Of a DNA stretch of 64,000 nt, positions 15,244-55,873 are shown one piece after another. The position numbers and the translations under genes are program-made. Each line of letters begins with the position of its first letter. Within the stretch, counting starts at the first letter, position 1. Origin of the DNA: Cristatella mucedo (taxonomy: Eukaryota > Bryozoa > Phylactolaemata > Cristatellidae); NCBI GenBank assembly GCA_009760855.2, contig WPIO01000002.1:10550501-10614500 (forward strand), in the 5' to 3' direction. Under the pieces are notes generated by a model that had not been told where the DNA came from, made no database searches, and saw only the letters and a program-made list of their open reading frames with translations.

Positions 15244-16024
15244 CTACACGTCGGTCTCGGTGGACGACAGGCTCTGGCTACTTGTCGCTGACGTCGGCCC
15301 CCTCCTCATGCTGCCGCCGCCGTTTGACAGCTGCAGCAGTTTGGTGCCTCCGTGCGCAGGGCTGCCACCGCTCGCAGACGCCTGGCGTCCTGTCGCGCCG
15401 CCGCCGTCTGCTCCATGCTTGCTTATCGCACCCGGCGAGGCGTCGGTGGCGGCGGCAGCGTCCGCATAGCCGGCCGAAGCACTGTCGGAAGCCGAGCTGC
15501 ATCCTCCGCAATTCTCAGCCAAAGAGATGGCGGTGCTCGGCAACTGTGACTGCTGCAGCGGCTTAGCGTCCGCGACCCGGGCGCTGCTGCCATTGAAGCC
15601 AAGAGCAGCAGCACCTGTTGTGGCAGCGGCGGAAGTCTCGTCGGCAGCAGGCGTGCTAGCCGAAGGCGAGCAGCGGAGCTCGGGTGACGCGGCGGCAGTT
15701 AGCTCCTCCTCCTCCTCCTCCTGCTCCTCCAGTGGCAGGCCGTCGGCCAACTCGCACTGCTCGGGCAGCGCCGGCGTGGACGGCTGCGCTGCGGCAGCCG
15801 ACGGCGGGCTGCACTCGCGCTCGTACGACAGCCGGCGCCGCCGCTGCTGCCCGCCGCCGCCGCCACCGGTGGAGGCGGCCGCCACTCCCGACGACTGCGA
15901 CCGGCGCAGCCTGACGCCGTTGGCGACGTCGAAGGGTGACGAGCTCAGCGGTTCGTACAGCGACGTCGTCATCGAGGCACCGCTCCAGGCGGGTCCAGGT
16001 GAACGCGGCGAGAACGCGAACGAT
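15244..16024 (-). CDS. MTUS-type gene exon 17, Ser/Pro tail and stop
   Basis: 781 nt after acceptor atctttgccag, phase 2, to the stop at 15244. Starts SFAFSPRSPGPAW, like the short Ser/Pro tail of vertebrate MTUS, but is extended to about 260 residues with Gly, Ala and Glu runs and ends SSQSLSSTETDV. A second in-frame acceptor (cgcctggag, exon from about 15988) would shorten it by 12 residues. Confidence 0.82.
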
Positions 16025-19000
16025 CTGGCAAAGATACGGCCGAGATGATGGCACACACAGTCCTCCTGCTACGAGCCTCGGGGTCAACCATCGTATGGGG
16101 CCTTCCCGTGGGAAAAGTTTGAGTAAAAAAAAAGGAGTGGCCATATGAGAATTGCCAGCACTGCCTGGCTACTGAAGGGAACGAGGCCGGAAGTGGACGC
16201 CGAAGCTGCGTGCGGGAGGCGCAGAAGCGGAAGCTTTTGGTGAGCAAAGCGGCTCGGCGGCACAGCTGTGTCGAAACGTAAGCTGCAGAATCGCCTCAAG
16301 AAACTAATGCCCAACGGGCATTACGTCAGCGAGACTTTGCAATGGTTCGGTCGACTTCGGCAACGCGACGCGACCCTCTACATTCTACAGCTAGGATTTG
16401 ACGACGTTTGCAGCGCCGGGGCGAGGTGGGCAACGACGGCAGAGCAAGGGGCACGCCTCTAGCAGCGCCTCTAGCAGCTGAACTCGAGCGCGCGAGCGCA
16501 GAGCAGCAGCCGGGGCTTCCTAAGTCGGCAGGTCCTGCAGCTCCCCCGCGGCGGCGGCGTCCGGTCCTGCACCGAGCGTTGCAGTGCTGCTGGCAGGGAG
16601 TGGCGGCTTCGGTGACGGCTGGTGCGCTGCGGCAGCTACGCGCACTCACCGCTGCATGGCTGCCGCCGCCGGCGAGCCGGTCGCGCTGTAGTCGGCGGTT
16701 GAGCACGTGACGTCATGGAGGCGGTACTGCAGCTCCTCGCAGTTCATGGACATGCGCAGCTTCTCGCGCGACTCGTGCTCGCAGCGCCGCGCCAGCTCGT
16801 CGCAGCGCTCCTGCAGCTCGCGCTCCGACCGTGCTCGAGACTCGACGGCCGCCTCCAGGCTCTCGACTCGCTGCTCCAGCAGCGACGCCCGGTCGCAGCC
16901 GGTGCGCAGCTCGTCCACCTGGGGGCGGAGTCAAAGGCGAAACGGTAGGGGGTGCCACTGCAGCGGCCGGCCGACTTCCTTTCGGTCGCCCCCTCCGCTC
17001 GAGCGCAGTGGCGACCTGGGGCCGCGCCGCTGCTGCACGACCAGAGGCAGCGCAAACGCAGGCACACGACGACTGTGACGGCCGCAGCAGCTCACCAGCT
17101 TTTTACTCTCATTGTACTCCTTTCGCAGCTTCTGAATCTCGGCATTCTTCATATCGACCACAGTCATGAGGCTCTCGACTTCCTTTGGAAGGTGCTTATA
17201 GGGAGACAAGGCCAGCTGCACGGAACAGGTAAAGGAGCGCCTGGCAGACCGAGAGCTCCAAAGCGTCGGAAGAAGCTGCAGCAGCCTTCGGAAGGTCAGC
17301 TAGAAGGGGAGCGCGGTGGCAGCAGCAGCAGCAGCACACGACGTCTGGGCAGGCTGTCGTGAGGGGCTATGCTTCGGGGGCATGTCAGACTGTGGCCAGG
17401 AGGGTGGATGAGGAAGGAAGGTACGTAGGTAAGTAGGTAGGTAGGCAGGTAGGTAGGTAGGTTGGAGGAGTTGCGCCGAGCTGCAGGAAGAGCGACCTGA
17501 CAGCTGCAGGAGATGAGGAGGAGGAGGAGGAGGAGGAGGAGTAGGAGGAGGAGTAGGAGGAGGAGGAGGAGGAGGAGGAAGAGGAGGAGGAGGCCTCAGC
17601 AGCTCAGCAAACTTGAATGATGCGTGCCAGCGCTGCATCGAGTCGTCACCTGCACTTTGACGTCGGCATCCTTCGTGAGTGCGTCTTCGACACGCCTGTA
17701 CTGGCCGCACAGCTCGTCGCGTTCCCTCTGCAAGGTCTGCAGCTTGTTCTGCAACGTTCGGCCAATCAAAGCAGCGTGACATGTGACACCGGGCCGGTAG
17801 ACGAGCAGTGGTTGTGGTGGGGGTGGTGGTGGAGGTAGGGTAGGGGCAGGCACAGCTTAACCAATAGCTCGGCCGTGAGCGGCAGCCAGGCGCAGGTCGG
17901 CGAGTTCACCGCCACGCTCGGCATGGCCTGTCTGCTTCGCAACATGGAGGAGCCTAGTGTTTGGCAACGGCCAACCGTGAACAGCAGCAAACTAGCAGCA
18001 GCACTCGGGCGTTTTCAGATTTCCGAACTCGACTGCCCAATGCACAGTGCCTGTGTCTTCAGATTAAATTAGCTGCAGGAAAACATTAACATAATAATCC
18101 GGATAATTGCAATGCAGACCTGCTACACAAAGTGGATTCAGAACTGTGTGCCTACCAGAAAGACGTGGTTCAAGGAAACTAAAAACGCATACATTTACCA
18201 TAGCATTAAGTGGGTCCCTGTGATTCGACCTTTCATGTGCTTATGCTTGGTGACACTGTGAGTGCTGCCACTAACCACACTTGCATGCTGACCGTGTGCA
18301 TGTCACACCCTAACCACGTTATTCTTGTTGTTTATTGAGCAAGTTACCACTAACCATTCGATCGTGCTTGCTTTGCAGCAAATCTAAAGCGCCTAGAAAG
18401 AGATTGAGTTCTCTGAGGGCGCTTTATCAAATGTATTATTATTGTTGTTGTTGTTATAAGGACGAACGCTTTGGTTTTCAAAATCAGCACGGTAGCACCT
18501 GTATTTACCGTGATTTCTGAGCATATTTTTTTTTACATAGTAGACATATGATCATAACAGCACTTACCTCTAGTTTACATAGAAAAAGCTATGAATGAGA
18601 GTTGGCCAGAGCATTGTCAGAGCAACCGGAATGCGGGGCCAAACTTAATAAGTTATTATTTTACCTTGACCTTGCGCAAACCAGTATAGCAGGCAGTACA
18701 GGCTGAGGGAAGCTCAGCATGGCAGCTTCCCCTCCCTCCCTACCCCATGCCGCCGGATAAAAGTAACAAGAGGCATGGCCATTTGCAAAAATTTTGCACG
18801 TGACATCAGAGTCACTCCTCATATACTTCCAAAGACCTCGTTCATCGCTTGGTGGTTCATCTTCTTCCTAAATTTAACTCTTCATCCACGACTGTCAGCA
18901 GCACAGACTCACTGTACCAACACACAAGTTGCTTGTGGAAGGCAGAATCAGGTCAGCAGGAGCAGGCTCTAATGGTCGATCCTGCTGTCAAACCAGTATC

Positions 19001-22000
19001 ACTTAACGAGGCAAAGAGCAATGGAGAGGAAGAGGAGGAAACTTGACGTACTCACGAGACATCCTGCTCTCGAGTGACACTCGGCACCTGATGAGAAAAG
19101 TGAGACAATAGCGTCCGAGTTCACCGGGCGCGCAAGGGTCACGCTCGCCCACGGCAGCTACCTGCAGGTTGTTCTTTTCTTCCGTAGCCTTCGTCACTGC
19201 GTCGTTGATTTCCTCGGCACAGCAGGCCTTGATTGCTACAGCCGCCATCGTGGCATGGCAGCACCAGCAGCAGCACGGCGAAGCACGAGCGCACGTCGCT
19301 GGCGAGGCGTGCGCTCGATCGCAGCACGAGAGTCGCAGGCGATTTACCTTCGATTTGCCCCTGCAGCTCGGCTACCGTCTCCGCGCGCTCGCCCTGCAGC
19401 TGCGCCACGCGAGCCTCGTGCTCGGCAGCGGCACGAAGAGTGGCAGCAGCCGTCGAGCTCAGCTCAGCTTCCAGGGCACCTTCAACGGAGCAGCAAGCGA
19501 GATCAGACGTTGCTGCGGCAGCGACTCGCAAGCAGCAAGTAATTCGGCTGCGTTAGCCGACGTCACGCTTTTCCGAGGTCTCGCCGGCGCTCACACGACG
19601 ACAGATCGTGCCCGTGCAGGATAAGCCATCGTGCGGCGGCGGCGGCAGTGGCAGAGGAAGAAGCGATCCGTTGCGAGAGAACGTACCGAGTTTTACTGTT
19701 GCTTCTGACAGCCGCCTCTCCAGCTCCTTGTTGCGTGCCGCAAGCCTCGGCGTGGAAAAGGCATTCAGCTACAAGAAAAAGGAACGCTGCTTTAACGCAA
19801 TAGGAGGAAGCCACAGCGGTCAGTCACGTGGACGCGGGCAGTCACAAAATCTGTACTGCCCCACCCCTTGCAGCAGATGGCGTAGACGGTTCAAGAAGCT
19901 GCACGTGCCTGACCAACGCTATGGATCCAGTTTCATTAACAAAAACCTGCCGGCCCTCTAGAGTCCTGGGCAGGTGCAATTCACCGCCCCACTAAAGCTG
20001 CAAGCTGGCAATGCTCATCTACGAAAATCCATCTGTCGGGTCAGGACATTCAGAACTGAGCAGTCACTGTGATATAACCTCACTACGACCACTGGGTGTT
20101 TACTTAGCCCATGTGGGGTAACATGGTGCTCACACTGTACGACCCAGGTCATGGGTTCGAGTCCTAGACTAGGTAACACTTTAATGTCCACTGCAAGCGG
20201 AAGTGATGGCCGCTAAGATTCTTGAGTCACCATATAAATGAGGTGAGAGGCCCTAGAATCATCGACCTCTACTTTCACTCGACCTGAGAGACTGCAATAC
20301 TGAGTGAGAAAAGAAAGACATATGAAGAGTGACTGCATTTCGACCAGCCTTGCAAGGGTTTTCTTTCCCTTTCTTTCTTTATAATGCAACTCGATCTTCG
20401 CTTCTCGGGGGAACGGCTTCGATGCATCCTATCCATCGCATCCGGCTGATCACGGCCGGTTTGAGCCCATCGCTAGCCACCCTAAGGCTAGCTACAAATC
20501 GGTTCCAATTATCGCTGCAGCACAGATGAAAGCAGCCTGCCGGTGGTAGTGGCACGTTGCCATCGAGCAGCCGTGCAGCGCTCACACATCGATACTGTGC
20601 CGTAGCCGGCTTGCCGTCTGCAGCGCTTTGGCCACACCGTAGCACGTTCCGACAGACAGCACAGGCCGCCTAGCGTTGTCACAGGCGCTACTGCAGAGGT
20701 GCACGGCGTCCACATGCCTGCACCTAGCACCCTCACACTCACTTTCCAGGAGCTGCCTCCTACACCGGCAAGTGCATGAGCGAGGCAGGCGTTCAGCAGG
20801 GCTCGGATATGTTTTTCAACTCTTGCCGACCTACCGAGCCGGAAATGAGTGAGTCAGCGAAAGGATTACAGATGCAGGAAACGCCACCAGCACGCAATCT
20901 GCTAAGAGTGCTGTCGAGAGATCAAATGTCAGCTGGCCACGAGCTAAAAGGCCCGGTCCGCCCTGCCCTTCATCAGTATTGCGCCAACACCTGGCAACAA
21001 AAAAGGAGCTGCCTGCCTCAGTTCTGCAGACCGACGCTCCGACAGGCAGGCAAGACGCCGACTGGTAGCGTACAGCCAATTCCGAAGCCAGTCAGTCTGG
21101 GCAGCTTGCCTCGGCCGAACCAGCGCCCCCACTCGGCCAAAAGGAGGGCCACATTGAAAAGCTGCTGCACAAATGGTCGTGCGCAGCAGGCAGAAAAAAT
21201 ACCAGCTAATTCAAAAGCCTCTTTTTGTACAGCAGCAGCAAAGGAGCCTTGTCGGCTATCACCACTGCTTGCAGCTGCAAAAAGGATCGCCCACAGCAGG
21301 ATTCGAACCAACGACCTTGAGACCGAGGTTCGTGAAAAAGTGAAAGCCTTACAGGCGTAAAACACAACAGCCACTTCTCCACTAATCGATTGACATTCGC
21401 TCCCTTTCCAGCACGTGCAAAGTGCCTAGAAAGAGGTTCAGGCCTCTTAGGTTACTATACAAATTCTGTATTGCTATTACTACTTATTCTCAAGTCTGCA
21501 TCTCTTGCCACTCTAGAATTGCAAATGGCTACGATGCTGGCCGTGGGTAGGATGAGGTTAATTCAACTTCCGAGTCCGACCTATTATTACCGATATATGT
21601 ACATATTTTTCTCCAATTGATAAAAACCACACGAAAAGCCCGGATGGTTAGTTCCCTTCACATTGCAACAGCATGGCTGCTGGCCCGACTGCAAGGACGC
21701 CCTCCCTTTCGGGTGCGATTAGCCACCATTGGATCTTGACAGGGTAGGAGGGCAGCTGCTGTTGCCAACGTTGACTTGTGGATAGATTGCAAAAAGTCAC
21801 CTTTAATAATAATAATAATGATAACAATACATTTGCATAGCACCCTCAGAGAACTCAATCTCGTGCTAGGTACTTGGCTGTACCGGCGACTGAGTGACTT
21901 CAACGGCAAGCCACTGTGGAGTGGCGATGACATCCAAATGCTCGGCGACCATTCGAAAGGGCAGTACCCAAACGAAATCTGACTAGGCCGGGCGGATCCG

Positions 22001-22327
22001 ATGCCCAGCCGGCCGAGGACTAGAGGCTTTGCTAGAGCAGCGGCCACTGACTGACAGCCGAGTCCAGCAGGCCCATCTGTGAATGCTCGAACGAGGTAAC
22101 TCAGCAAGACAATGCAGGCCCATGCAGCGCTGCCCAACGATCAGCTGCTTCTGCTGCTACTCAATCCGGTGCTACATGGAGTTATGCTGAGACTCGCCGA
22201 GTGCCCCCATCGACAACACAACATCCGGGAGCCGGGTAGGCCGAAGGGATGGAAAACCGTCACAGCTTCGTACGACCGACTACAGTGGCAGCGTGAAAAG
22301 CATGGCTGCCACACGGGGAGACCTCCC

Positions 22328-22366
<39 letters not shown>

Positions 22367-25300: not shown

Positions 25301-25644
25301 ATGGTGAACCAACTGAGCTCTGAATCGTGGCGCTGCTGCCACAATCGAAGCTGACCGACTAGTTTCACGGCAAGCAACTCGGCATTCTTGCACTCCCTGC
25401 ATTGCTGAGAGGGAGTGCAAGAGGGGCGGCCATGGTGCCGCCATGTGCCCACGGCTACAGAATTTGCATTACGAATTCGCCTGGTGTCGTCAAGGCTGAC
25501 AAGCCTGGCCGATCAAGCAAGCATGCGTGGCGAATCCAAACAGATAGACGCACAGCACTGGAGGTAGCACACCTCCGTTCTTCGGTGAGCAGTTGCTGCA
25601 TTGCCCGGGCAGCAGCAACGGCGCCACTGCCGCATGCGTCATTG

Positions 25645-25693
<49 letters not shown>

Positions 25694-27448: not shown

Positions 27449-27524
<76 letters not shown>

Positions 27525-39500: not shown

Positions 39501-39752
39501 CAGGCCGGGGCTCTATTAAGCTGCCACCTCAGCCTGACCAGGCACACAACTGACCATGAGTCTGCAGTCTCAAGTCGACGGCAGCAGCCAGTATTAATAT
39601 CGACCGCATTAATGTAATTTGATGCCACCTTTTGCAAACGAGACCTAACAGACGGACAGCAGCAATTGCCACTGGCTACGCCCACATTAATATGGGTTCA
39701 GCCGGAATGTGGAATGGAGCTACGGACGCAGTGCATCAAACACACACTTACC

Positions 39753-39787
<35 letters not shown>

Positions 39788-42700: not shown

Positions 42701-45700
42701 GCTGCTGCCACCGTTGCTGCTGCAGCTCTTGCTGCCGCTGATCTCACCACCGCCACCATCGCCCTCCAGCCGGCGGCCGTCATGGGCTGCGGCCGCCGGC
42801 CGCTGGCGGCCGACGGCCGCCTTAGCGGGAGCGGCGCGCTTGCCGTTGGCGACACTCGGAGTGGAGCAGTCTTCTGGCTCACGCAGGGCGCCAAACTCGA
42901 CGAGGCTGCCCAGGGAGCTGCGGCGACTGTGGCTCGTGAGATCGCCGACAAACGAGCCGTCCACGTCCTCGAGGTCTACCTGCGGCACAGGCTCGCAAGC
43001 AGGCGCTGACGACGACGACTGTGCCACGGCCGCATCAGCATCGACTGACAGCGTGACAGTGGTGTCGAGGACACCACGCTCGCGGCAAGCGATCGGACCG
43101 TTGTGGTGGCCGAGAGCGGCGATGTCAGCAGCGGCACTAGGAGCAATGACGGATGGCGAGCCGGCTGCACGCGCTGCCCGAGCAGAGCGCTCTCTGACTG
43201 GCGCCTCGCTTTCCCGGTCCGCAGGGGCTTCACCAGACAGCACGAAGGTGCCGTCCAAACGAGTGCCAACATTTTCCAGATCGTCATTACTTCCTGGATT
43301 GCCACGAGCGTCGACCGCGCTGACATCGGCACCGGGTAGGGCATCTTGTCGCGCAATCAACACGACAGTGGAGTCCTGAAAAAGATCAGTTCGTCACCTC
43401 TTTGGGCAGCACAAGCAGAACGCCGAGCAGGCTTATGGCTGACTTGACAACCAAGTAAGCAATCGACACACATGCAACCAAAAACTGTACAATATTACGA
43501 CACGTTAGCTCCATGCCAAAAGAATCGCACGACACGTTTTAAAACAACCCCATTGAGGCAGCCGGCAGTGGACAGTGGTCAAATGCACTGTACCCCATTG
43601 AGGCAGCCGGCAGTGGACAGTGGTCAAACGCACTGTCGGCACACATAAAGATGAGATGGCAAGTCAGTGGCTCAGCTATCGAGGCACCCACTGCCAGATG
43701 AACGCAAAGCAGTGCAGCACCCACGGCCGTACATGCTGGATGCATCGAGAATGCCACACTTTAGCTCAACAGGGGACAACTAGGTACATTGTGAGTTAAG
43801 AAAGTTTCACATTAAACTAAATAAATACAGCCTCAGCCGGAACACTGAGTGCAATAGTTCTCTGCTCAGGAGCAGAAGGCATTGCATAAGACTAGCATCT
43901 ACATTCCTTACGCACTAATACATGCAAAATGTTCGTGGCAGGCAAGGGCAAGTCAACGACAGCATGAACAACCGCACGTTAGGTTTTTTCATGCATTTCC
44001 GTCTGTAACTCCACAAAGACTATGTGGGAGTTACGCGGGAGAGTTGTGCGTAGTGCACTCAGAGCATAAGTGGCTTTCGGTACACATTCGGTAGCCAACA
44101 GACTTCATCACGAAACAAAAAGAAAGTGAGAAGCATAGCTAAGTCATGAAAGCAATTGAAGTAGTGAGTGGCATGGAAGTAGCAGCTCAGGGCGGCTGGA
44201 AAGGATGTGCCACAGTCGGCAGCAGGAGAGTACATGTCGTTACTTGAGGATTGTGGAAGTGAGTTCAACATTATAGGACCTTCAGAACTAAAGCTTCTGT
44301 CACCAACGTTCTTTAAGCAGAAGAATGGAACAGCTCATTTATTCTCCATACAGGAGCTGAGTACACGAGGAGGCTGAAACTAGTGCAGCAACGCCCAACT
44401 TGCGCATTGCAGCCACACACTAATTACAAATAGGGCTCATCTGGCAAAACATTTTCTACAAGCAGTCGAGCTCACCGTGCTTTGGAATGCCGGCACACAA
44501 GCATACGCAAAGATGTGCTCCTAGCTAATGGTAAACAGATTGTCTCGTGCCACCAAGCGCACCCGGCAACCCTGCCTTCCTAAAACAAACAGGGACAAGA
44601 AACGATGCTCCCAAAAACAAGAAAAATCGAACCGGCTTCACATCAACGATTTGGCATCTGCCGCCTAAAAAAAAATAGGTAATCCTAAATATCGTAGGAC
44701 ATCATCTACACTTCGAGCATGACGGCGGGAATGGCACAAGACTCATCTACCGCTCACTCCTCCTGCCCACGATGTTCACACGGAAAAGAACTGGGGACAC
44801 ATTTTCCTACGAGATCGTGCAAGATGAGCTTGCTTGTTGCATGATCCTTCGACTGTAAACTGAAGATGTTGATCGATGGCTCGCTCAGTGCTCACAGCTG
44901 TGAATCATGCAACTCACACGACAGCAAAAGCAACAAAGAAGCTCTTAGATGACGAGTAGCCAAATTTAAAGGTTGGCAGATTCAACAGCCTCATAAATAT
45001 AGCAGCAGAAAATCCTATACAGCTACCACCACCGCTTGCAGTGAGCAATAAAGGATCGCCCATAGCTGGACTCAAACCCACGATGAGGGTCGTCAAGAAC
45101 AAGCCTACTTACCCTGGGCTAAGTCCCAGTGGCTAATGATAGCATAATGCAGGGAGAAGGCACTGAAATGTAGCAAACCCTGGTATATTACATCCACCTG
45201 TGCGATGTAGTGACCCATAAGACAAATTGCTCATCCTGTAAAGAATAACTTGTTCGTATAGTGCCTAGATAATCTAAATATTTTGCTAGGCACTGCACCA
45301 GGTGGGAAAAGAAGCATGTTAACTAAATAGTGATAATTAATTGCACAATTGCATCAACCATTAGTACATAAAGGAAAATACTAGGAGGAACAGAAGGATT
45401 TATGGTTACGTTTTTAATAACATCTAGTCACGGAATGTCGTGATGTCGGTAGCAATTTATAGGCATTTGGGTGCATCAGAACTCAAGACACGATCTCTAC
45501 AGAATTAGAGGTTGATTAGAGGTACGAATAATTAAACAGAATTAGAGGAGCTGGTTTTGCAAAGGAAGCCTGAGGATAAATATTTCCGATATTTAAGCCT
45601 GAGCAAGAGAATGAAGAGATCTGCGACCGAACCAAAGTGTCAACAGGCAGTTTGGTGAGCCAGTGCAGGCTGCAGAAAAGTTGTATATTGTGACAGCTTC

Positions 45701-48700
45701 GACGCTGACGACAGACAATCTTAGCTGCCGAGTTTTCACCATCTGTAGGCACGTTATTGACCAGGCAGGAAGACCCACGAGGACTGGGCTATATAGAAGC
45801 GTAGACTGAATGTCACAAACGCCAGGGCTGACGCTAGACTATGCTTATCTCTTATCTCGGCATATTCAAAATGTCTACAAATGTACATAGCTGAAAGTCG
45901 ACAGGCTTGATGTGGTCCTCGTGTGGAGGTGATGTGGTCCTTTGTCATCCAAGAACTGGACACTGAGAATCCTTCTACAGGCGACTGGGGATATATATGT
46001 ATCTCCATCTGTAACTCCACAAAGCCATAAAGACAATGTGGGTGTTACGCAGGAGAGTTTTGTATAGAGCACTCACAGCCTGAGCGGCTTTCGGTACGCG
46101 TTCGGTAGCCAACAGACTTTGTCTCACGCAACAAAGAGAAAGTGGGAAGCATAGCAGAGTCAAGAGAGCAGTTGAGGTAGTGAGTAGCATGGAAGTAGCA
46201 GCTCAGGACCACTGAAAAGGATGAGCCATAGTCGGCAACAGAAGAGTAGTTGTCGTTGCGTAAGAATTGTGGAAGCGAGTTCCACAGTCTAGGGCCTGCA
46301 GAGTTAAAGCTTCTGTCGCCAACGGCCTTTAAGCGGAGGAATACAACAGCTAATTAATTTATTGTCCACACAGAACCTGAGGGCATAAAGAGGCTGAAAC
46401 TGGTGCAGAAGTTCAGCTAGGTATGAAGAAGCCAAGCCGTGGCGGGCCTTGTGGGTCAGCATAAGAACTTTGTTCTGTTGCTCAACCGGTATCCACCCTA
46501 GCTCTTTTAGCAAAGGAACGCGCGCTCAAACCTCAGTGATTGGCAAATTACCCTTGCAGCCATAGTCATAGCCAGCTGCAATGGCCTAGTTGCTTTTTTC
46601 GGTAGCCCAGCCAAAAGGGAATTACAGTAATCTAGTCGAGACAGAACTAGGGAGCTGGTTAAATATTTTGCATGACGGCTCCTAATCTTAGATAGGGATT
46701 GGACATGATGCCTAGCTGTAGACGGTCTTCTGAAAGAAGCTTTTAAAATTTAGGCAGCTGTCAAAAAACGACACCTAAATTTTGAGTATGTGGTGATGGT
46801 CACACAACAGCATCACTTATTAGGAGGGAAGTGCCTTTTAATCCAGCCACACACTTAGGGTGTCCTATGACAGCAGTTCGGTTCTATCGTCATTTAGTTT
46901 CAAGAAGTTTTCTGACATCCAGGATCGAATGTCGGCAAGGCAAGCATTCAGTTTCTCAGTGGCTGCAGCAGATTCCGACGGTTTGAATGACAAATACAGC
47001 TGAGTATCACCAGCATAAAAGTGATATCTTATTTCATGGGCCTTAATCACTTTTCCGAGAGGTTGAGTATAAATTGAGAACAGCAAGGGACTGAGTACAG
47101 ACCCTTGAGGGACTCCACAGGTGACCGGTCTCGTGTGTGAGACCTGACCCCCACACGACACGGATTGAACACGATCAGACAAGTACAATTTAAACCATGC
47201 CAGTTCCTCGTCTGCCAGACCGATCGCTGTTCTCAATCGTTCAAGTAGAACATCGTGATCAATGGTGGCAAAGGCAGCTGACAAATCTAGCAGAGCTAGG
47301 GCAGTGACATTCCCGTCATCGTTGCCACGTAGAATGCCATTGTTAACACGGAGGAGAGCAGTCTCAGTGGAGTGCTGCCACTTGAACCCTGAATGAAATG
47401 TTTCTGGGATTTCATTCTTTTCAATATGTTCAACCAGCTGCTTAGCTACAATTTTTTCAAGAATCTTTGACAAGAAAGAAAAAGGGAAACTGGACGATAG
47501 TTTGCAAGGACCTCTGTATCTAATCCTGGCTTTTTAAGTATGGGTCTAACGATTGCCGATTTGAAGGACTTGGGGACGACCCCTTTTCCCAAAGAAGCAT
47601 TAAAACTCTCGGTTATGGCAGGGCTAATTTGGTCTGCCACTGAAGACCACAGAGATGATGGTACAGGGTCTTCAGCAGACGAGTTTTTTCCTAGACCTAA
47701 TTGTGGTAGCCACATCGCATGCAGAAACCTCGGAAAACCTCTTAAGGAAGGTCACAGGTTGTGATTCCGCAATTGCTTTACTCGGAGGGAGCTTTATGGA
47801 GGCCGGTCGACCCAATTTTTAGTGCTGCTCTCTTTGGTGTCTGAGCAACACTGGGTTTGCCCATAACTATTAGGATAGGGTAATGAACAAAGACCACCTC
47901 AGAAATGCGGATCATCAAGCCGCCGGTTTAATCATCAGGGCTGGGGAGAGTAGGGAATACTTTGCTGTTTCCGTGCAAGACAGCCACCATAGGCAGGTCA
48001 CAACAGTAACCGCTTCAGAGCTAGCCACGCAGAGCAAGTTCATCTCGAAGTCTAAGAAGACTACTAGCCTTCTTGGCTAGCCTATCAAACTAATGTTCTC
48101 CATCTGAGATACCTAGACTTACTGTTGCATTGCATAACTAACCTAGCAAATCTGTAATTAATCTCAGCTCATGCCTCAGCACATTTCCAAGATGCTGTTG
48201 TCAAGCCACATAATAGGAAGTCTACATTACAGAAAGAGAACTAACTACCGTCTACTCAGTCTCCCTACTGCTATTCCTTTCGACAACAATTAAATAAGTA
48301 GCAGCAGCCCAGTTAAACTCGTACATCCAAACTTCAAACCTCGCAGATCAGTTCCGGTAAGGTTTTCACGCAAATCATTCGGCAGAGTCGGCACCGCTGC
48401 AAGTGTATAAAGACCTCAGGAATGCTCAGTTAAAGTGAGTCTTTCTGCTAGTTATGCTGGATTTCTCCGAAGCCTTTGATACAAAGATCACCAAATCCTT
48501 GTTGAGCGACTGTCGTCTTGCCTAGGCATCACAGGCACTGAGTTGCATTGGTCAAGGTCTTCCAAATGGGAGAAGTCAGGGAGTATATGTCAATGGAAAG
48601 CGATCATCCAGTGAGATTGACGTATGCAAAACAACAGAAACTCGTTTAGGTTCACTCCTTTTTCACAGTTCGCCCTCTCCCTGTTGCCTATGTAATTGCC

Positions 48701-51700
48701 AAGCACAATCTAGGCTTTCATTTGTATGAGACGCCAGGCAGCTTCATTTGTGCTTCGATCCTTCCCAGCCTTCCAGCATCTTAAACTCTATAAGCACTTT
48801 AACAGCCTGCACTGCTGACATTTGCATTCGGATGGCAACAAACTTTCTTAAATTGAATGACAACAAAACCAACTTACTAATTATGGGCAAACCAAGTGTA
48901 ACTCGGAAACTGGAAAACCTAACTCTCCAAATCGGCTCGACAAGCATATCTTCTGTAGCCTCAAACCACCCTCATATCCTTTGAAGTCCTTCAATGACCC
49001 AAAAGTATAGAGCTCCCGACTGACGACACATTATCTCCTGATTTGACGACATTCAAAATTAAGCTTATCCCAGATCTGTCCAACACAGCCTTTGCTATGT
49101 CCGAGTAATATTGTCCTTTTACTTTCTTACTCTTTTACTTTCTCGGTGGATGTGTCTTCTTCTAGTGTGCTATGTTTGCCTCCACACGATTGAGTGTGTT
49201 TTAACTATTCTTATAATTATTTTTATTACCATCCGCCACAAGTATTTTGCATGCTATTGCATTCTTGTCTTAGCATGATAACTATTGTGCTTCCGCATGC
49301 TTTCCTAAGCAATATACCTTGCCTCTTTTCCTTATCTACTGGTCATTGCTTCTCTTGCAGCAAGCGACTTATAAAGCACCTGAATAGAAATTAAGTTTTC
49401 TTAGACCGTCATCTAAAGACTTATTATCATTATAATTAACAGGCCGAAAGCTAACGTTCTTGCTGCCTAACCGGTCACTAGCAGAGTCGGATCGCTAGAG
49501 GAATCACTGAATGAATGATCACTGAAGGAATTACTGCATAGGTGCTGCTAGGCCGTACCTCGCAGGATTTGGTCACCAGTTCACTGAGCTTGTCGCAGCC
49601 GCCGAGCGAAGTGTCCTGCAGCCAGCTGCCTGCAACGAACGAAGCCGTTCAGCGCTTTCCAGTCGAGCACTAAACTAAGGGCTGGGTGGGGCGGGGCATG
49701 GTCGGACAGTGCTGCAGCAGCGGCGGCTGCTGCTTCTGCAGAGATTCGATCCAGCTCTTACCGGACACGCCGCTGCTGGCCATCTCAGCAGCCGGGGCCT
49801 CATCGCTGTGATCAGACAGCCCCTCGAACTGCTTGGCAAGGGCGAGGCTCTCCAGCTGGATGAGACTGGCGATGTCGTCATCGGGAAGCCAGCGATCTGA
49901 GATGAACCGAAGGCTGAGCTGGCAACACGGCCAAGAGAAGCGCACTAATACTCTGGTGCCAAGCAGCATGAGTCTAGCTGCACTCCTTCCAGCAAACGAG
50001 CTCGGCCCATCGGGCTAGGTAGCAGACGCGTGGTACTCGAAAACCTACTCTACTAATAACAATAAGCAAACTTTATAGAGCCAATTAACTCCTCTGGCAT
50101 CGCGGTAGCAGCCCAAAGCAACAAGTTCGGGCAAAGAAATCATAAGAGGGCTAGTGGCAAGAGTGTCAGCACGAGCAGTAGAACTGCTGGCATGGGATGC
50201 TCGAGAACAAGCAGCCACGTTGATGCTCCAAAAAAAAAAAACTTGGCCAGAGCTTGGGTGGCAGTCGTCTGCCAGCTGGACCTGATCCCACGCATCCTGT
50301 GCACACGGCACACAATTGAGCAGAGGCAGCCTATGAGATATGCGCCCGCAAAGCGGACTGATTCGTAGTTCACCACGTTATGCTCGAATCTAAACGGTTA
50401 GTGGTGGTAGCGGCTTGTCTAGGAGCCTGGACACAAGCAGCGCGACGGCAGGCGGCCAGGCCCTCAGCCGACGGCTGAAGGCAGGAGGGGATTGATGGCC
50501 AACTCGAACCTCGTGTAATGCATCGGGCGATCAAATAATAAAAATAATAATACACTTGATAAAGCGCCCTCAGAGAACTTAATCTCTTTCTAGGCGCTTT
50601 ACATTTCCTGCAAATGGAAATGCAATTGAATGGTAAGTAAAATCATGCTTGAAAAACAATCACAATGAATAATATGGTTAGGGGTGACATGCACAGGGTC
50701 AGCATGCAAATGTGGTTAGTGGCAGTATGCACAGTGTCAGCACGCATAAGCACATGAAGGACGAATTACAGGGACCCACTATATGCTGACCTAAATAGGT
50801 GTGTTTCAGAGCAGGACTCTTCACGATTGAATGCATGTGCACAAAACAGAGCGGCTCAATAACATCTTCTCCGTCTGCAACCAGCGTTTGTTTGGTGACA
50901 CACCAACAGAGTGAGTTTCTACGAACAACGCCACTATTGCAGGAGGGTGTGCGGGTTCACCCCACGAGTCCGACTCGACATTTTCGACTGCAGCCAACCG
51001 ACAGGACTCGACTTGTACCGGATAGCTACAAATAAACTTCATTAGATACACAGAAATCCGGTTGCCACTTCAACAATATTACACTTTTAGATTACCTTTT
51101 GGCAAAGCGACACCCTGAATGATCATAGAGGCGATTGCACGACGCGATTGCAATAAACGATTCCAAAATACCGAGCGATCGAAGGCAGCCTGCGGTGAGA
51201 CTGAACTCAGACCAAGAATTTCGCCTCGAGCTGCAAGAGCGGTCGCTCAACCTCTGGCAAACAGACACAGACCTCACTCAATCGGGATGCCAAGGCATAA
51301 ATAGCAGGCCTCGGCTAATTGTAAATGACAGCACAGTGGCACCATAGAGAGCAATGGCAGAGTGAAGCCATTGAGGACCAAACACCCACTGGCTGCAGAG
51401 CCAGCAGCCTGAGTTTGCTGGGTGGCACTTGTGTCAAGCAGCAGCCGAATGCCACTCGAGTTTGGTCGATGGTCAAGAGACTAGGTGAAAGTAGACAGAC
51501 TGGACTGCCGTGCTCTCGTGATAGGTCATCTAGTGAAAGGTCATATTAGAGCAGGACAACTAGATTCCGTGCAAAGGCTGCACGACATGTGCTGGCCGAG
51601 CCCATTTCGATGGTTCGACTTTCCTGTTTCTGAGCGACACTAGAAATTTCCTACTAAGTTGGCGCTATCGTCACTCAATCTGAGAAAATTTGCAGACATC

Positions 51701-53545: not shown

Positions 53546-53599
<54 letters not shown>

Positions 53600-53600
53600 A

Positions 53601-53642
<42 letters not shown>

Positions 53643-55873
53643 CTCTCCAGTGTAACACCCACACACTTAGCCCTTATAGCTCTGCAAATTTAACCAAAGT
53701 TGTGCAAGAGCATCAGCCAGAGCTTTTAATAGGCACATTATAAACAAACAAAACCGCGTGCAATCCCGCCACACAGTGCCGACGAGTACCCCTGCTCGAC
53801 TGCTGTGGCAGCACTCCGCTGCACCGCCTCGGACTAGGCTGGCAGATGGTGAGTGAGCGAGGGGCTGCCCCTTCCTGCTCCCTACATGATCCGGCACCGT
53901 GAGCACATCATGGCAAGCCCAGAGCAGCCGCCCGAGCACGTGCGCTCGCGCAGATCAGTACAGGCGGCTACTTCTCAGCCGAGTCGTTTCTCAGATCTGA
54001 GCTGCAATCAGAGCTCAGAGCTCAGGCATCCTCCTCTTACAATCCTGCTGATGCATTCTATGCACGCCGGCATGCGGCCAGCTCCCCCCAGGCAGCCGCA
54101 GCAGCCAGCGCTTCGCTGCCATGCATTGCACCACGACTGCACCGGTTCCTACGACCCAGCAGCTCGAGGACGGCAAAAACGTCACCGGGGAAGAGCACGC
54201 CGGCTCGGTCTCGTTTAACGAAGCGAGGGCAACGACCAAGCAGAGGCTGGACGGTGCTGTTCAGAGGCAGCCGCAGGGCTGAGCTGCTCAATAAGGATTC
54301 ACACGCCCAGACTTCCGGCCACGTCACTGCTTGCAGGAAACGTCTCGTGCGGTCATGGGGTTCGAGCTGGCTGAGGGGAGTAGCAAAGCTGGGTTAGGGC
54401 ATTGGGAAAGGCTGAATGAACGGCACGAGGGCCCAAGCACGTACCGGCATGATGCTCGCCTGTGGTTGCCTGCTCGCCAGTCCAGCTTGTGGGCGTCTTG
54501 AACAGCTCAATGCTTCGGTTCAGCGACGTGTTGAGTGTCGTCGGGCTGCCACTATTTTCCACACCCACCGCCGGCGGCAGCAGCGGCGGTGCCACCGGTG
54601 AGCCGGCGGCAGCAGCAGCGGCGGCGGCAGCCATCTTGCGGCTCAGTTCGAGCAAGGCGAGGGCTTTCTTCTCTGCGCTGCCGCCACATCGTTCGGCTGC
54701 GTCATCCGCCGGCAGACGGCTCGCGAGAGTGAATGGAGACGCGTCCGGTGAGCCGCTGCCGCCACCGCCCCTGCTGCTCGGCTCACGGCGAGACGATGCA
54801 TCGCCGGGCAGCGTAGGAGATATGCACAGCGAAGAAGCATCCAAGGTCAGGTGATGCAAGGTGCCGTCCTTGCCCGTACAGTCACCAGCGCCATTGCCAT
54901 TGGCGCTCGACAAGGAGTCCTCAAGATGACTATCGACCAACTGCTTCTGGGGCGTAGCACCTCGCTCGACCCCTGCATCGGCCCCAGCCACGCAACTCAC
55001 TTTGCCGGTCCTCGGCATCAGAGAAACGGCGAATCGCAGCGACGACGCGTCGCTAGGCACCGGAGCGCGGTCCTCAAAGTCAGCCGCCTCGACGCGAGCG
55101 CTCGCTTCGCACTGGCGCCGCGGGCGCACTGGCGCCTCGAACGTCTCGTTGAGCACGCAGCGGGCCTGGCTCACCGAACGCTCAGCCCCGTCGAAGCTCC
55201 CCGGGCTGCCGCTGGCCTCTTCGGCGAGCGGTGATGCGCTGCCCAAGTCGTTCAATACGAACGTCGTGTCGCCGCCGCTGCCGCCGGCGTCATCTCTGTC
55301 GTCGCTGTTCCCGCGATCCGGCGCCACCTTCGACAGGAGCACGAAGATCCCCGAGTTGGCGGCGCAGCTGAAGTAGCGCACGTCTCGCACGGAGCCATCG
55401 TTCTTGCCACTGCCAGCCGCCGCATCGGCGGCGCACAGCTCGATGCCGCACCAGACGTCCGCGGCGAAGTGCACTGGCCCGCAGTAGCGCAGCGTGCCTC
55501 GGCGCGCTCCGCCGACGATCACAGGGCAGCCAACGGTCAGGTGTGCCAACGACGTTGAGCTCGGCGGCGCCGGCGGCTCCATGCCGGCAGCAGTGGCGGC
55601 AGCGAGGCCCTGGGGCTCGATGACACGGCTGCCCACCGCCTCGAGCCAGCTGCTGCCAGCTGCCTGATCGTACGCGGATGATAAATCGGCTGCAGCCGCC
55701 TCGGCAGCGGCTGCAGGGGCAGAGGCGGCCAGCGAGCGGTCGTCAGCGGAGCAGCTTCGGTCCGCTACCGCAGCTGCTGTCGATGCTGCTGCCGCTGTCA
55801 ACTGGTCGTCTGCAGACAGAGCAGCAACAGCAGCTGTGCCGGCCGCCCGATAGTGTCTGGGTGGCACCAGCAT
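15244..55873 (-). CDS. CAP-Gly plus MTUS/ATIP-type coiled-coil microtubule protein, 17 exons
   Basis: Joining 55873-54445, 49896-49762, 49629-49559, 43375-42589, 37518-37484, 37343-36933, 35563-35381, 29021-28874, 28682-28473, 26228-25696, 19768-19687, 19479-19348, 19235-19162, 17748-17650, 17215-17096, 16918-16650 and 16024-15244 gives 5499 nt, an open 1832-residue protein; every junction is GT-AG and in phase. Residues 112-183 are a CAP-Gly domain with GKNDGSV. About 190-1290 is Ser/Ala/Pro/Gly-rich. From about 1296 it matches the MTUS1/MTUS2 C-terminus: SISALAVLLRY, a long coiled coil, HLPKEVESLMTVVDMKNAEI (1451-) and MSMNCEELQYRLHD (1539-1552), then a Ser/Pro tail. CAP-Gly domains bind EEY/F tails of tubulin and EB proteins; MTUS proteins bind microtubules. 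An in-frame stop lies upstream of the Met, at 55928. One or more phase-0 exons may be missing between 25696 and 19768, and 5' exons are unknown. The C-terminal family call is strong; the link to the CAP-Gly exon is inferred. Confidence 0.78.
16650..16918 (-). CDS. MTUS-type gene exon 16, family signature
   Basis: 269 nt between cgcccccag and CAGCG|GTGAGT; phase 0 in, 2 out. Coiled coil ending HESREKLRMSMNCEELQYRL followed by HDVT, which matches the ExESxxNxRLSMENEELxxKLH end of the MTUS coiled coil. Confidence 0.9.
17096..17215 (-). CDS. MTUS-type gene exon 15, family signature
   Basis: 120 nt between ttccgtgcag and CTG|GTGAGC, phase 0. Encodes HLPKEVESLMTVVDMKNAEI and QKLRKEYNESKKL. This aligns with the MTUS1/2 segment of the form LExELESLKAVLEIKNEK, the clearest family marker here. 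Confidence 0.9.
17413..17595. repeat. (GTAG)n and (GGA)n tracts in an MTUS-type gene intron
   Basis: GTAG-type repeats at about 17413-17463 and an almost pure GGA run at about 17515-17595. On the gene's strand the latter is a long CCT pyrimidine tract just after exon 14. Confidence 0.9.
17650..17748 (-). CDS. MTUS-type gene exon 14, coiled coil
   Basis: 99 nt between aacgttgcag and CAG|GTGACG, phase 0. Encodes NKLQTLQRERDELCGQYRRV and EDALTKDADVKVQ. Confidence 0.85.
18175..18460 (+). mobile_element. L2-type LINE 3' end
   Basis: ACTAAAAACGCATACATTTA, the 3' UTR with CATGCTGACC, then AAAGCGCCTAGAAAGAGATT, GTTCTCTGAGGGCGCTTTAT and (ATT)/(GTT)n. Lies antisense in the intron between exons 13 and 14. 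Confidence 0.85.
19162..19235 (-). CDS. MTUS-type gene exon 13, coiled coil
   Basis: 74 nt between gcggctgtag and CAG|GTAGCT; phase 1 in, 0 out. Encodes AIKACCAEEINDAVTKATEE and KNNLQ. Confidence 0.8.
19348..19479 (-). CDS. MTUS-type gene exon 12, coiled coil
   Basis: 132 nt between ccgttgaag and GAAG|GTAAAT; phase 1 in and out. Encodes GALEAELSSTAAATLRAAAE, HEARVAQLQGERAETVAELQ and GQIE. Confidence 0.84.
19687..19768 (-). CDS. MTUS-type gene exon 11, coiled coil
   Basis: 82 nt between ttcttgtag and CTCG|GTACGT; phase 0 in, 1 out. Encodes LNAFSTPRLAARNKELERRL and SEATVKL, heptad-like. Confidence 0.82.
20100..20250 (+). mobile_element. tRNA-derived SINE, plus orientation
   Basis: A tRNA-like head with the B box GGGTTCGAGTCC near 20156, then the body CACTGCAAGCGGAAGTGATG, the reverse complement of the body in the minus-oriented copies. 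Confidence 0.68.
21205..21350 (-). mobile_element. tRNA-derived SINE
   Basis: AAAAGCCTCTTTTTGTACAG, AAAAGGATCGCCCACAGCAG and GGATTCGAACCAACGACC, matching the family pattern. Confidence 0.72.
21395..21490 (+). mobile_element. L2-type LINE tail
   Basis: AAAGTGCCTAGAAAGAGGTT, then CTCTTAGGTTACTATACAAAT and an AT-rich end. Confidence 0.72.
21800..21875 (-). mobile_element. L2-type LINE tail
   Basis: (AAT)n, then TTGCATAGCACCCTCAGAGA and CTCAATCTCGTGCTAGGTA. Opposite orientation to the copy 300 bp upstream. Confidence 0.75.
22330..22365. repeat. (CAG)n tract, 12 copies
   Basis: Pure CAG run in the intron between exons 10 and 11. Confidence 0.96.
22540..22620 (+). mobile_element. L2-type LINE tail, diverged
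   Basis: GATTCTCTTCTTATGGTACT followed by ATACAAACATATGATATTAT, the decayed tail. Confidence 0.5.
24480..24775 (+). mobile_element. L2-type LINE 3' end with a trace of the RT C-terminus
   Basis: Plus frame reads KAWSSLPTDATALPDLTTC and KKLTCSSTAFA, the end of the LINE protein, then AAAGTGCATAGAACGAGATC, GGTTCTCTTAGGGTGCAATA and (ATT)n. Confidence 0.82.
25386..25422. repeat. 13-bp perfect hairpin with 11-nt loop
   Basis: TCTTGCACTCCCT (25386-25398) pairs exactly with 25410-25422. Lies in the intron downstream of exon 10. Confidence 0.92.
25646..25690. repeat. (CTG)15 tract abutting the exon 10 donor
   Basis: Fifteen pure copies. On the gene's strand the order is GAG|GTGAG then (CAG)15, so the repeat begins at intron position +6. 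Read-through would encode poly-Ser. Confidence 0.95.
25696..26228 (-). CDS. MTUS-type gene exon 10, entry into the conserved region
   Basis: 533 nt between ccgttatctag and GAG|GTGAGC; phase 1 in, 0 out. Starts DQASKVPPPLPRGGVPGSFG, then runs into a helical part ending RRLGTSISALAVLLRYTTEE, which resembles the motif opening the MTUS coiled coil (ALxVVxxHLLxE). A (CAG)15 tract begins six bases inside the intron. Confidence 0.82.
26230..28470. other. Intron between MTUS-type exons 9 and 10
   Basis: GC-rich, CAG/CTG-sprinkled sequence with a (GA)n tract; no LINE tail or coding exon recognised. Confidence 0.45.
27450..27521. repeat. (GA)n tract, about 36 copies
   Basis: Pure GA run in the same intron; CT-rich on the gene's strand. 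Confidence 0.96.
28473..28682 (-). CDS. MTUS-type gene exon 9, Ala-rich
   Basis: 210 nt between tcaatgcag and CGTC|GTGAGT; phase 1 in and out. Starts ERRLKSPQPSAAVAG; includes long Ala runs and RQLPAAAPRRS. Confidence 0.75.
28874..29021 (-). CDS. MTUS-type gene exon 8
   Basis: 148 nt between ctccttgcag and TCAG|GTAGGC; phase 0 in, 1 out. Starts SSMGAAESAPAAAAD and ends VSRRSLAKS. Confidence 0.75.
29575..29760 (-). mobile_element. L2-type LINE 3' end, diverged
   Basis: GCATAGCATCCTAAGAGAAC, CACATCTCAGAGCAGCAGAT and a 3'-UTR-like remnant. No (AAT)n end is left. Confidence 0.6.
29761..32130. other. AT-richer intron stretch
   Basis: Lies between exons 7 and 8 of the MTUS-type gene. A weak tail-like piece with (AAT)n sits at 30245-30345; otherwise no coding frame or known repeat is recognised. 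Confidence 0.45.
32135..33140 (+). mobile_element. L2-type LINE remnant with an opposite-strand copy inside
   Basis: The plus part at 32135-32530 holds a decayed RT C-terminus, and the plus tail is at 33041-33138 (CAGAATAGAGAACTACTTCT, AAGGGTGCTATACAACAAAA). Between them, 32528-32790 is a minus-oriented tail with (AAT)n, CACCTTCAGATAATTGTATC and the 3' UTR. The simplest reading is a later insertion into an older copy. Confidence 0.7.
33470..33502. repeat. Short tandem duplication with A-run
   Basis: ACAGGTCTGTTA occurs twice, separated by an A-run. Confidence 0.8.
34160..34310 (-). mobile_element. tRNA-derived SINE
   Basis: CAGCCTCTTTTGTATAGCGA, GCAATAAAGGATCGCCCACC and GGATTCAAACCCACGACCTC, then a tRNA-like remainder with CAACCACCTTACCTGGTAGT. 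Confidence 0.75.
34561..34615. repeat. Hairpin: 12-bp arms extended to 17 bp with a bulge
   Basis: TGGCGGTCGAGG (34571-34582) pairs with 34599-34610, loop 16 nt. GAACC (34561-34565) and GGTTC (34611-34615) extend the stem past a 5-nt one-sided bulge. Confidence 0.9.
35381..35563 (-). CDS. MTUS-type gene exon 7
   Basis: 183 nt between tgcttgcag and CAG|GTGCGC, phase 0. Encodes CLPVPATVGQRSSLIAPS, TFKAPLPRPAATALVPP and ERASSVASISSQ. Confidence 0.8.
36933..37343 (-). CDS. MTUS-type gene exon 6
   Basis: 411 nt between gtgccctag and AAG|GTAACA, phase 0. Begins GSPPPPPVQPANQ and carries KRNPPRSRWADISKQLEESR, a basic/aromatic segment, followed by Ala/Ser-rich sequence and a Gln5 run. Confidence 0.82.
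37484..37518 (-). CDS. MTUS-type gene exon 5: 35-nt micro-exon
   Basis: Acceptor gattgtag and donor AAG|GTGAGG enclose 35 nt coding PGSAGQHGQEK. It enters in phase 1 and leaves in phase 0; without it, exon 4 and exon 6 would be out of frame. Confidence 0.65.
37530..42580. other. Intron between MTUS-type exons 4 and 5
   Basis: About 5 kb. Contains the CA duplication, weak L2-type tail pieces at 40410-40450 and 40900-40945, and CAG-type imperfect repeats near 41740-41815. A splice-bordered 163-nt segment at 41246-41408 is discussed under rejected items. Confidence 0.45.
39720..39835. repeat. CA-rich tandem duplication, about 61-bp unit
   Basis: GGACGCAGTGCATCAAACAC and its near copy GGACGCAGTGCACCAAACAC each lead into CTTACCGACACACACA runs. 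Lies in the intron between exons 4 and 5. Confidence 0.88.
42589..43375 (-). CDS. MTUS-type gene exon 4: Ser/Ala-rich linker
   Basis: 787 nt between ctttttcag and GTCG|GTGAGT; phase 0 in, 1 out. Starts DSTVVLIARQD and holds LDGTFVLSG, VLDTTVTLS and VDGSFVGD, repeats of a short D-x-T-x-V-L-like motif. The rest is basic and Ser-rich (SHSRRSSLGSLVEFG), typical of a disordered microtubule-binding linker. Confidence 0.82.
43550..43642. repeat. Two tandem copies of a 45-46-bp unit
   Basis: CCCCATTGAGGCAGCCGGCA starts both copies; they differ at about one base (AAATGCACTG versus AAACGCACTG). Located 175 bp upstream of exon 4. Confidence 0.92.
44010..44420 (-). mobile_element. LINE 3' end, second family (as at 46.0 kb)
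   Basis: TCTGTAACTCCACAAAGACT, GGCTTTCGGTACACATTCGG, AGTAGCATGGAAG-like and AGCTTCTGTCACCAACG segments match 46.0-46.4 kb. The 3' end differs from the L2-type copies with the (ATT)n tail. Confidence 0.78.
44975..45115 (-). mobile_element. tRNA-derived SINE
   Basis: CAACAGCCTCATAAATATAG, GAGCAATAAAGGATCGCCCA and GGACTCAAACCCACGATG, matching the family pattern with decay in the B-box region. Confidence 0.7.
45230..45960 (-). mobile_element. L2-type LINE 3' part, decayed
   Basis: Minus frames contain KIVCRQRRSCHNIQLFCSLH, the counterpart of RLVCRERRSCHITPLLADLH in the 11.4-kb copy, and a diverged tail near 45260-45295. Confidence 0.75.
46000..47785 (-). mobile_element. LINE with reverse-transcriptase core, second family
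   Basis: Two overlapping minus frames, 47715-47446 and 47473-46865, give an RT core broken by one frameshift near 47470: SAIVRPILKKPGLDTEVLAN, YRPVS, ALLDLSAAFATIDHDVLLER, TCGVPQGSVLSPLLFSIYTQ, then HFYAGDTQLYLSF and NFLKLNDDRTELL. The catalytic box, normally F/YADD, reads YAGD, so one active-site Asp is lost. Downstream the frame decays further to the family's 3' end near 46000. Placed with the L2/CR1-like non-LTR group by motif order. Inactive. Confidence 0.92.
47795..47885 (-). mobile_element. L2-type LINE fragment (MGKPSV region)
   Basis: Plus-strand TGGGTTTGCCCATAACTATT is the reverse of the MGKPSV-coding segment of the 11.4-kb element. A small piece abutting the other LINE. Confidence 0.6.
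48390..49440 (+). mobile_element. L2-type LINE, decayed RT to tail
   Basis: Plus frames show SLLVMLDFSEAFDT, then a better-kept stretch at 48748-48984 (ATNFLKLNDNKTNLLIMGKP, SVTRKLENLTLQIGSTSISS), and finally the tail CACCTGAATAGAAATTAAGT and TTATTATCATTATAATTA. Many stops and frameshifts. Confidence 0.85.
49559..49629 (-). CDS. MTUS-type gene exon 3
   Basis: 71 nt between cgttgcag and GAG|GTACGG; phase 1 in, 0 out. It encodes GSWLQDTSLGGCDKLSELVT and KSCE. Confidence 0.72.
49762..49896 (-). CDS. MTUS-type gene exon 2
   Basis: 135 nt between ttcatctcag and TCCG|GTAAGA; phase 1 in and out. It encodes DRWLPDDDIASLIQ, LESLALAKQFEGLSDHSD and more; acidic, helix-prone. Confidence 0.75.
50535..50805 (-). 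mobile_element. L2-type LINE 3' end, well preserved
   Basis: (AAT)n, AAGCGCCCTCAGAGAACTTA, TCTTTCTAGGCGCTTTACAT and a 3' UTR nearly identical to that of the copy at 11.4 kb. Truncated before the coding part. Confidence 0.88.
51520..52335 (-). mobile_element. L2-type LINE, decayed RT; contains duplication copy 1
   Basis: Minus-strand translation yields IVSLLLLLDLSAACHSID (RT DLSAAFDTID motif) and, near 51640, the CGAACCATCGAAATGGGCTC segment homologous to the reference copy. Stops are frequent. 51912-52335 is repeated at 53234-53761. Confidence 0.75.
53234..53761 (-). repeat. Duplication copy 2 of LINE-derived sequence, with (AT)n insertion
   Basis: Nearly identical to 51912-52335, including GATCCAGCAGAAGTAGCAGA and AGTGTTTGACTGGTCAGACA. 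It differs mainly by about 105 bp of (AT)n at 53532-53642, where copy 1 has GCTATAGATAAC. Direct orientation. Confidence 0.88.
53532..53642. repeat. (AT)n tract
   Basis: About 110 bp of nearly pure AT with a few phase shifts, inside duplication copy 2. Confidence 0.95.
54445..55873 (-). CDS. MTUS-type gene exon 1: CAP-Gly domain
   Basis: 476 codons from Met to the strong donor CCG|GTACGT (phase 1). After an Ala-rich lead, residues 112-183 carry GARRGTLRYCGPVHF, WCGIEL and GKNDGSV...VRYFSC, all hallmarks of CAP-Gly. A Ser-rich linker with DTTFVLN and VLNETF follows. A possible acceptor (ctgctgcag) lies 30 bp upstream of the ATG, so this may not be the first exon. Confidence 0.88.

Follow-up and report, generated by a model that had tools for sequence, protein, structure and literature searches.

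Exons and neighbours in the window

The window analysed here is a 64,000-nucleotide stretch of the Cristatella mucedo genome, corresponding to C222:10550501–10614500 in assembly coordinates. Its minus strand carries, from position 55873 down to position 15244, a chain of 17 exons that have GT-AG borders, match in phase and contain no internal stop. We rebuilt this chain independently and obtained 1832 residues, which reproduces the length of the single frame proposed in an earlier reading of the letters alone (the sequence-only reading). Our first hand model used another fifth exon (40668–40550) and comprised 1860 residues. It was set aside in favour of the 1832-residue model, and the amino acid numbers of the alignments below follow the 1860-residue model.

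Exon 1 (54445–55873, with its donor at 54445) encodes a CAP-Gly domain (55325–55534, amino acids 114–183) followed by a Ser/Gly-rich stretch that includes the motifs DTTFV and NETFE. As a start codon, the ATG at 55582 (Met 98) appears at least as likely as that at 55873, because similarity to a paralogue described below starts only at residue 100. CpG content shows no rise at 55.5–57 kb and is not informative as a promoter mark. Exon 2 (49762–49896) contains the stretch DDDIASLIQLESLALAKQFEGLSDHSDE, exon 3 (49559–49629) is placed by phase fit, and exon 4 (42589–43375) carries [DN]x[TS][FV] motifs. A tentative 35-base exon 5 (37484–37518) links this part of the chain to exon 6 (36933–37343), which is rich in Pro, Ser and Gln and includes an IAPS motif. 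Exon 7 (35381–35563) encodes a basic Ser/Pro region with the sequence IAPSTFK, and exon 8 (28874–29021) has SLLP in a basic context. These are followed by exon 9 (28473–28682) and by exon 10 (25696–26228), where a coil begins (ALAVLLRYTTEE). The coil continues in exon 11 (19687–19768), exon 12 (19348–19479), exon 13 (19162–19235) and exon 14 (17650–17748). Signatures of the MTUS type lie in exon 15 (17096–17215; LPKEVESLMTVVDMKNAEIQKLRK) and exon 16 (16650–16918; SMNCEELQYRLHD), and exon 17 (15244–16024) contains an SPR motif and a low-complexity tail that runs to the stop codon TAG.

The security of these exons is uneven. Exons 1, 2 and 4 are backed by the paralogue with ratios of non-synonymous to synonymous change (dN/dS) below 1, and exons 12 to the start of 17 fall inside an alignment to human MTUS1. 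Exons 6–11 are assigned by codon use, splice sites and phase. Specifically, the first 53 codons of exon 6 score 13.5, compared with 5.4 at the 99% point of intronic open frames, exons 8–10 are defined by splice borders and phase, and exon 11 fits in phase with a negative codon-use score. Exons 13 and 14 also fit in phase and have weak acceptors (−4.3 and −1.7 by our own matrix).

Two other features were observed in the window. Inside the intron between exons 3 and 4, a reverse transcriptase fragment (RVT_1, 8e-26) occupies positions 46865–47533 of the minus strand. Head-to-head with the CAP-Gly gene, an 831-codon open frame spans 60088–62583 on the plus strand. This frame matches DUF4502 below threshold (E 0.0065, 16.4 bits against 27) and is presumably SPIDR-like.

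A CAP-Gly head with a diverged paralogue

The identity of the CAP-Gly domain in exon 1 is certain on the strength of its match to Pfam PF01302 (E 7.3e-21; 74.3 bits, where the cut-off is 26.5), and its GKNDG motif lies at 55408–55394. The sequence-only reading had thus correctly placed a CAP-Gly domain with this motif at the start of the chain. The closest solved relatives are CAP-Gly domains of the CLIP family, with 1whj, CLIPR-59 and CLIP-115 as the best PDB matches and Restin and dynactin-1 also among the relatives found. We take 1whj (RIKEN 1700024K14) to be CLIP4. Like CLIP-170, CLIP-115, CLIPR-59 and CLIP4, the protein combines a CAP-Gly domain with GKNDG. In contrast to the CLIP family, Pfam matches one CAP-Gly stretch in the whole model, not two in tandem, and the tail is of the MTUS type.

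In an alignment to a provisional dynactin-1 sequence, the domain is 41% identical over 73 amino acids. PMC3583065 lists five residues of p150 that bind EEY/F, namely F52, W57, K68, N69 and R90. In this alignment to the provisional sequence four of the five are kept, and the position of R90 is occupied by Leu. Dynactin p150Glued resembles the predicted protein in having a single N-terminal CAP-Gly domain plus a coil, but the coil here matches MTUS1, no dynactin chain is found among the eight PDB matches of the coil, and a p150-like CAP-Gly exon (L006, named by eye) sits elsewhere in the assembly.

A scan of the 572-Mb, 688-contig assembly revealed CAP-Gly domains in at least 16 places, the one in the window included. 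Two loci (L001/L008 and L002/L007) each have two CAP-Gly matches in one open frame and are CLIP-like by eye, and a further CAP-Gly exon, also named by eye, is Kif13-like (L003).

The same scan, together with tblastn of the model, uncovered a diverged paralogue on the contig of the window, at a distance of 2.4 Mb (C222:12976041–12985237; L009 and L010), in which counterparts of exons 1, 2 and 4 are arranged in the same order and on the same strand as in the window. The identities are 42% over amino acids 100–481 for exon 1 (E 5e-44), 65% over 37 amino acids for exon 2 (E 1e-7) and 36% over amino acids 545–731 for exon 4 (E 8e-13). Three splice sites coincide in position between the two copies: the donor of exon 1, the acceptor of exon 2 and the acceptor of exon 4. 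By the NG86 method, dN/dS for exon 1 is 0.31 in the CAP-Gly part (83 codons), 0.66 after it and 0.61 overall; the values for exons 2 and 4 are 0.14 and 0.37. Together these results show that the frames of exons 1, 2 and 4 are under selection, and they support the junction 54445/49896. On this comparison, exons 1, 2 and 4 belong to one gene.

These results bear on the checks that the sequence-only reading had proposed. The junction 54445/49896 that it proposed gains support from the paralogue, and a break between 49.5 and 54.4 kb, which it had named as one case that would refute the fusion, is made unlikely by the exon order, splice sites and dN/dS values of the paralogue. Its proposed junction 43375/49559 is corroborated on one side only: the exon 4 acceptor at 43375 is supported by the paralogue, and no separate counterpart of exon 3 was seen there.

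The paralogue itself may have been shortened or may be decaying. Its second exon lacks the donor and apparently continues beyond that point, and its counterpart of exon 4 is stopped early, after amino acid 731, next to a possible donor. Downstream of the paralogue, tblastn detected none of exons 6–17 within 164 kb, a search that short diverged exons could escape. A weak match of exon 15 at C222:13,059,318 (E 0.037) was examined and judged to be due to chance. When the linker of exons 1–4 was searched against the whole assembly, nine matches were found: four of the window's own, three of the paralogue and two at chance level (E 0.5–0.7). For the plus-strand open frame at 60088–62583, tblastn gave no match within the 220 kb surrounding the paralogue, and this neighbour was hence not found duplicated with it. 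An interspersed repeat at 11408–12365 and 50534–50806 also has several copies in the region of the paralogue, with identities of mostly 92–94%.

An MTUS-type tail and motifs along the chain

Residues 1388–1611 of the 1860-residue model, beginning in exon 12 and reaching the first residues of exon 17, form a collinear alignment with the C-terminal coil of human MTUS1, with 26% identity over 228 columns (E 4e-12). The alignment scores 164, compared with a shuffle maximum of 95, and none of 1000 heptad-block shuffles did as well. The MTUS1 query is a provisional version of the human sequence. It is 1270 residues long, and the Ile-Pro of its SAIP motif falls at 1251–1252, in agreement with PMC8147298 and PMC4791250. 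Judged by this alignment, the coil is homologous to the common region of ATIP proteins. The MTUS1/2 signatures that had been noticed at 17.1 and 16.7 kb are accordingly genuine, as exons 15 and 16 both lie within the collinear alignment.

Close known counterparts are MTUS1/ATIP3, MTUS2 and Xenopus ICIS, with Drosophila Toucan as a relative. The C-terminal coil of MTUS1 also contains L.xE(V/L)ESL and SM..EEL..LH and is followed by an SPR motif. The predicted protein differs from human ATIP3 in length (1832 residues in the model against 1270) and in its head: PMC8147298, in the passages that describe a coiled coil and 874 unstructured residues at the N-terminus, names no CAP-Gly domain.

A PDB search with the coil returned eight weak matches, all generic coils, and 18 pattern matches in viral contigs yielded no confirmed MTUS relative. 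Pfam XH exceeded its cut-off of 22.2 bits with a fragment of the coil (24.4 bits, E 3e-5) and fell below it with the whole model (18.1 bits), which we took as coil similarity. No second copy of exons 15–16 was found in the assembly, where both of the two matches (E up to 0.001) are the window's own. Likewise, no second copy of exons 6–8 and the start of exon 9 was found in the 572 Mb, where three of four matches are the window's own and the fourth has an E value of 0.62. These copy searches score best candidates only, and coil exons that are short and have diverged might escape them.

Outside the coil, a short motif recurs in MTUS1. The pattern [DN]xTF[VEDTI], which was picked only after it had been sighted in this protein, occurs three times in exons 1–4 (0 of 5000 shuffles) and not in exons 6–17; the N-terminal region of the provisional MTUS1 sequence likewise contains it three times (0 of 5000 shuffles). 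Of the 14 other CAP-Gly places, 6 are covered by four distinct open frames, and none of these frames has it. Alignment of longer stretches gave no such signal. The part of exons 1–4 after the CAP-Gly domain, aligned to the N-terminal part of the provisional MTUS1 sequence, has a score that is reached by 203 of 300 shuffles for residues 1–690 and by 219 of 300 for residues 1–874, and exons 6–10 perform no better than shuffles against residues 1–874 (37 of 300 reach the score). Within the chain, the word IAPS, also selected only after it had been seen here, is found in exons 4, 6 and 7, and no shuffle of 5000 reaches three occurrences. Word sharing between exons is otherwise mostly weak.

The proposed join of head and tail and the predicted protein

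The sequence-only reading had assigned both modules to one gene. Its components hold, in that both modules are real, share a strand, follow each other in the expected order and allow splicing in frame. The union itself is less firmly settled, and the chain may be broken somewhere between 42.6 and 37.3 kb. Ab initio parses gave a tie, with 547.9 for one gene and 548.2 for two. The one-gene chain of the dynamic programme has 22 exons, not 17, and excludes exon 13 by its acceptor cut-off. Among the best 12 two-gene parses, the breaks fall at 33, 39, 46 and 54 kb alike and never at 40 kb, and because they are so spread the tie reflects low power. Nevertheless, we consider it probable that a single gene is able to make the joined CAP-Gly–MTUS product.

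On the side of one gene stand the lack of a stop within exon 4, the existence of a phase-compatible linker, the [DN]xTF motifs that exons 1–4 have in common with the N-terminal region of MTUS1, and the occurrence of IAPS in exons 4, 6 and 7. The failure of exons 1–4 after the CAP-Gly domain, and of exons 6–10, to align to MTUS1 above shuffles counts against it. The 35-base exon 5 scores 8.8, the best of 171 phase-compatible linkers in its intron. The best linkers of four introns score 1.8 to 3.8, against which exon 5 looks special. However, a score of 8.8 was reached in 8 of 79 genomic segments, 4 of 7 GC-rich segments and 19 of 28 overlapping antisense segments, a control from which segments touching paralogue exons were left out and in which some segments may hold real exons. 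The mini-exon is thus within chance, and we dropped it as evidence for the join.

The sequence between exons 4 and 6 also offers alternatives to exon 5. A phase-compatible exon at 40529–40668 could serve internally (40668–40550) or as a terminal exon with a stop at 40531–40529, followed by AATAAA at 40491 as a possible 3′ end, and an ATG at 37540 is a candidate start of an MTUS-only product. These elements would suit two neighbouring genes on the same strand, one for a CAP-Gly protein of roughly 850 residues that ends in 40668–40529, the other an MTUS gene whose start lies near 37.5 kb. This arrangement fits the equal overall ab initio score, one listed parse that starts a second gene at 37540 (547.2), and the fact that the CAP-Gly part alone has a paralogue, with none of exons 6–17 detected in the 164 kb beyond it and no second copy of the MTUS tail. 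We nonetheless regard it as rather unlikely. Over its 39 codons the exon at 40668 has a codon score of −0.87, and the start exon drops from 3.5 to −0.7 once the codons from ATG 37540 are included, although codon use is a weak guide here because exon 15, a sure exon, scores −2.6. Furthermore, no listed split falls near 40 kb, and some listed parses place their break at 46 or 54 kb, against the evidence of the paralogue. It is also improbable, by an estimate that is not a computed one, that a CAP-Gly gene (at least 16 CAP-Gly places per 572 Mb) should by chance adjoin, on the same strand, the only detected MTUS tail, which would bring two plus-end proteins together.

The same 3′ end (40531/40491) and 5′ start (ATG 37540) could instead belong to one locus with several promoters and ends, which would produce a long CAP-Gly–MTUS form together with short CAP-Gly-only and MTUS-only forms. 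Human MTUS1 makes ATIP1, ATIP3 and ATIP4 by promoter usage and splicing, according to PMC8147298. We hold such a set of forms to be doubtful but conceivable; it agrees with the one-gene explanation, which covers it in part. GC-rich sequence has many open frames, and exons 5, 13 and 14 are weak, which might suggest that the whole chain is an artefact of stitching such frames together. This is highly improbable, being contradicted by the paralogue, Pfam and MTUS1 comparisons for exons 1, 2, 4, 12, 15 and 16.

The best explanation is a single gene whose product is probably a large protein of the MTUS/ATIP kind, with a place at microtubule plus ends and an N-terminal CAP-Gly domain. Coiled-coil motifs of the common ATIP C-terminal region take part in dimerization, as reported in PMC8147298, and dimerization through the C-terminal coil would place two CAP-Gly heads on each molecule. 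CAP-Gly domains use the GKNDG loop to read the EEY/F tails of tyrosinated α-tubulin and composite EB/tubulin sites (PMC13406575), and the heads would be expected to read such tails on tyrosinated α-tubulin and EB proteins. ATIP3 binds microtubules and the C-terminal region of EB1 by its central D2 region, not by SxIP (PMC4791250). By analogy, the long low-complexity middle, with its basic Ser/Pro stretches, may bind the lattice and EB1, and a dimer would have two such middles. The product might then behave as an ATIP3 equipped with heads of the CLIP type, staying at plus ends and making them less dynamic.

CAP-Gly domains and the MTUS/ATIP coil normally occur in different proteins. If they are united here, the tubulin-tail reader of CLIP-170 and p150 would be joined to a protein that restrains EB1 turnover in humans. 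The gene could then be tested as an ancestor of MTUS1/2 or as a side branch, the N-terminal half of these proteins having been described as unstructured. The combination might represent an old architecture of the MTUS/ATIP family that was lost in vertebrates, with the [DN]xTF motifs of MTUS1 as a remnant of the linker between head and coil, an idea that we consider unlikely; the sequence-only reading had set an ancestral origin beside a lineage-specific fusion. No paper on CAP-Gly and MTUS in one protein was found among the matches listed, which cover part of the literature, and the architecture may already be present, unremarked, in predicted proteomes.

The assembly also contains mitochondrial COX1 (C688, L037), which has 14 TGA, 11 AGA/AGG and 2 AAA codons in 512. 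Translated with table 5, it matches solved COX1 chains along almost all of its length, and the vertebrate code would introduce 12 stops, 11 of them AGR. In the best alignment, read by eye, AAA stands at Lys in both cases, and the ten AGR codons within it stand at Ser (three), Ala (four), Thr, Gly and Lys (one each) and never at Arg. These observations agree with the invertebrate mitochondrial code and point to a protostome-like invertebrate. They count against the codes of vertebrates, flatworms/echinoderms and cnidarians, and less strongly against that of tunicates. Five more partial COX1 matches outside C688 (C166:4375626–4376390, C83, C549 and C299) are possibly nuclear copies of mitochondrial DNA.
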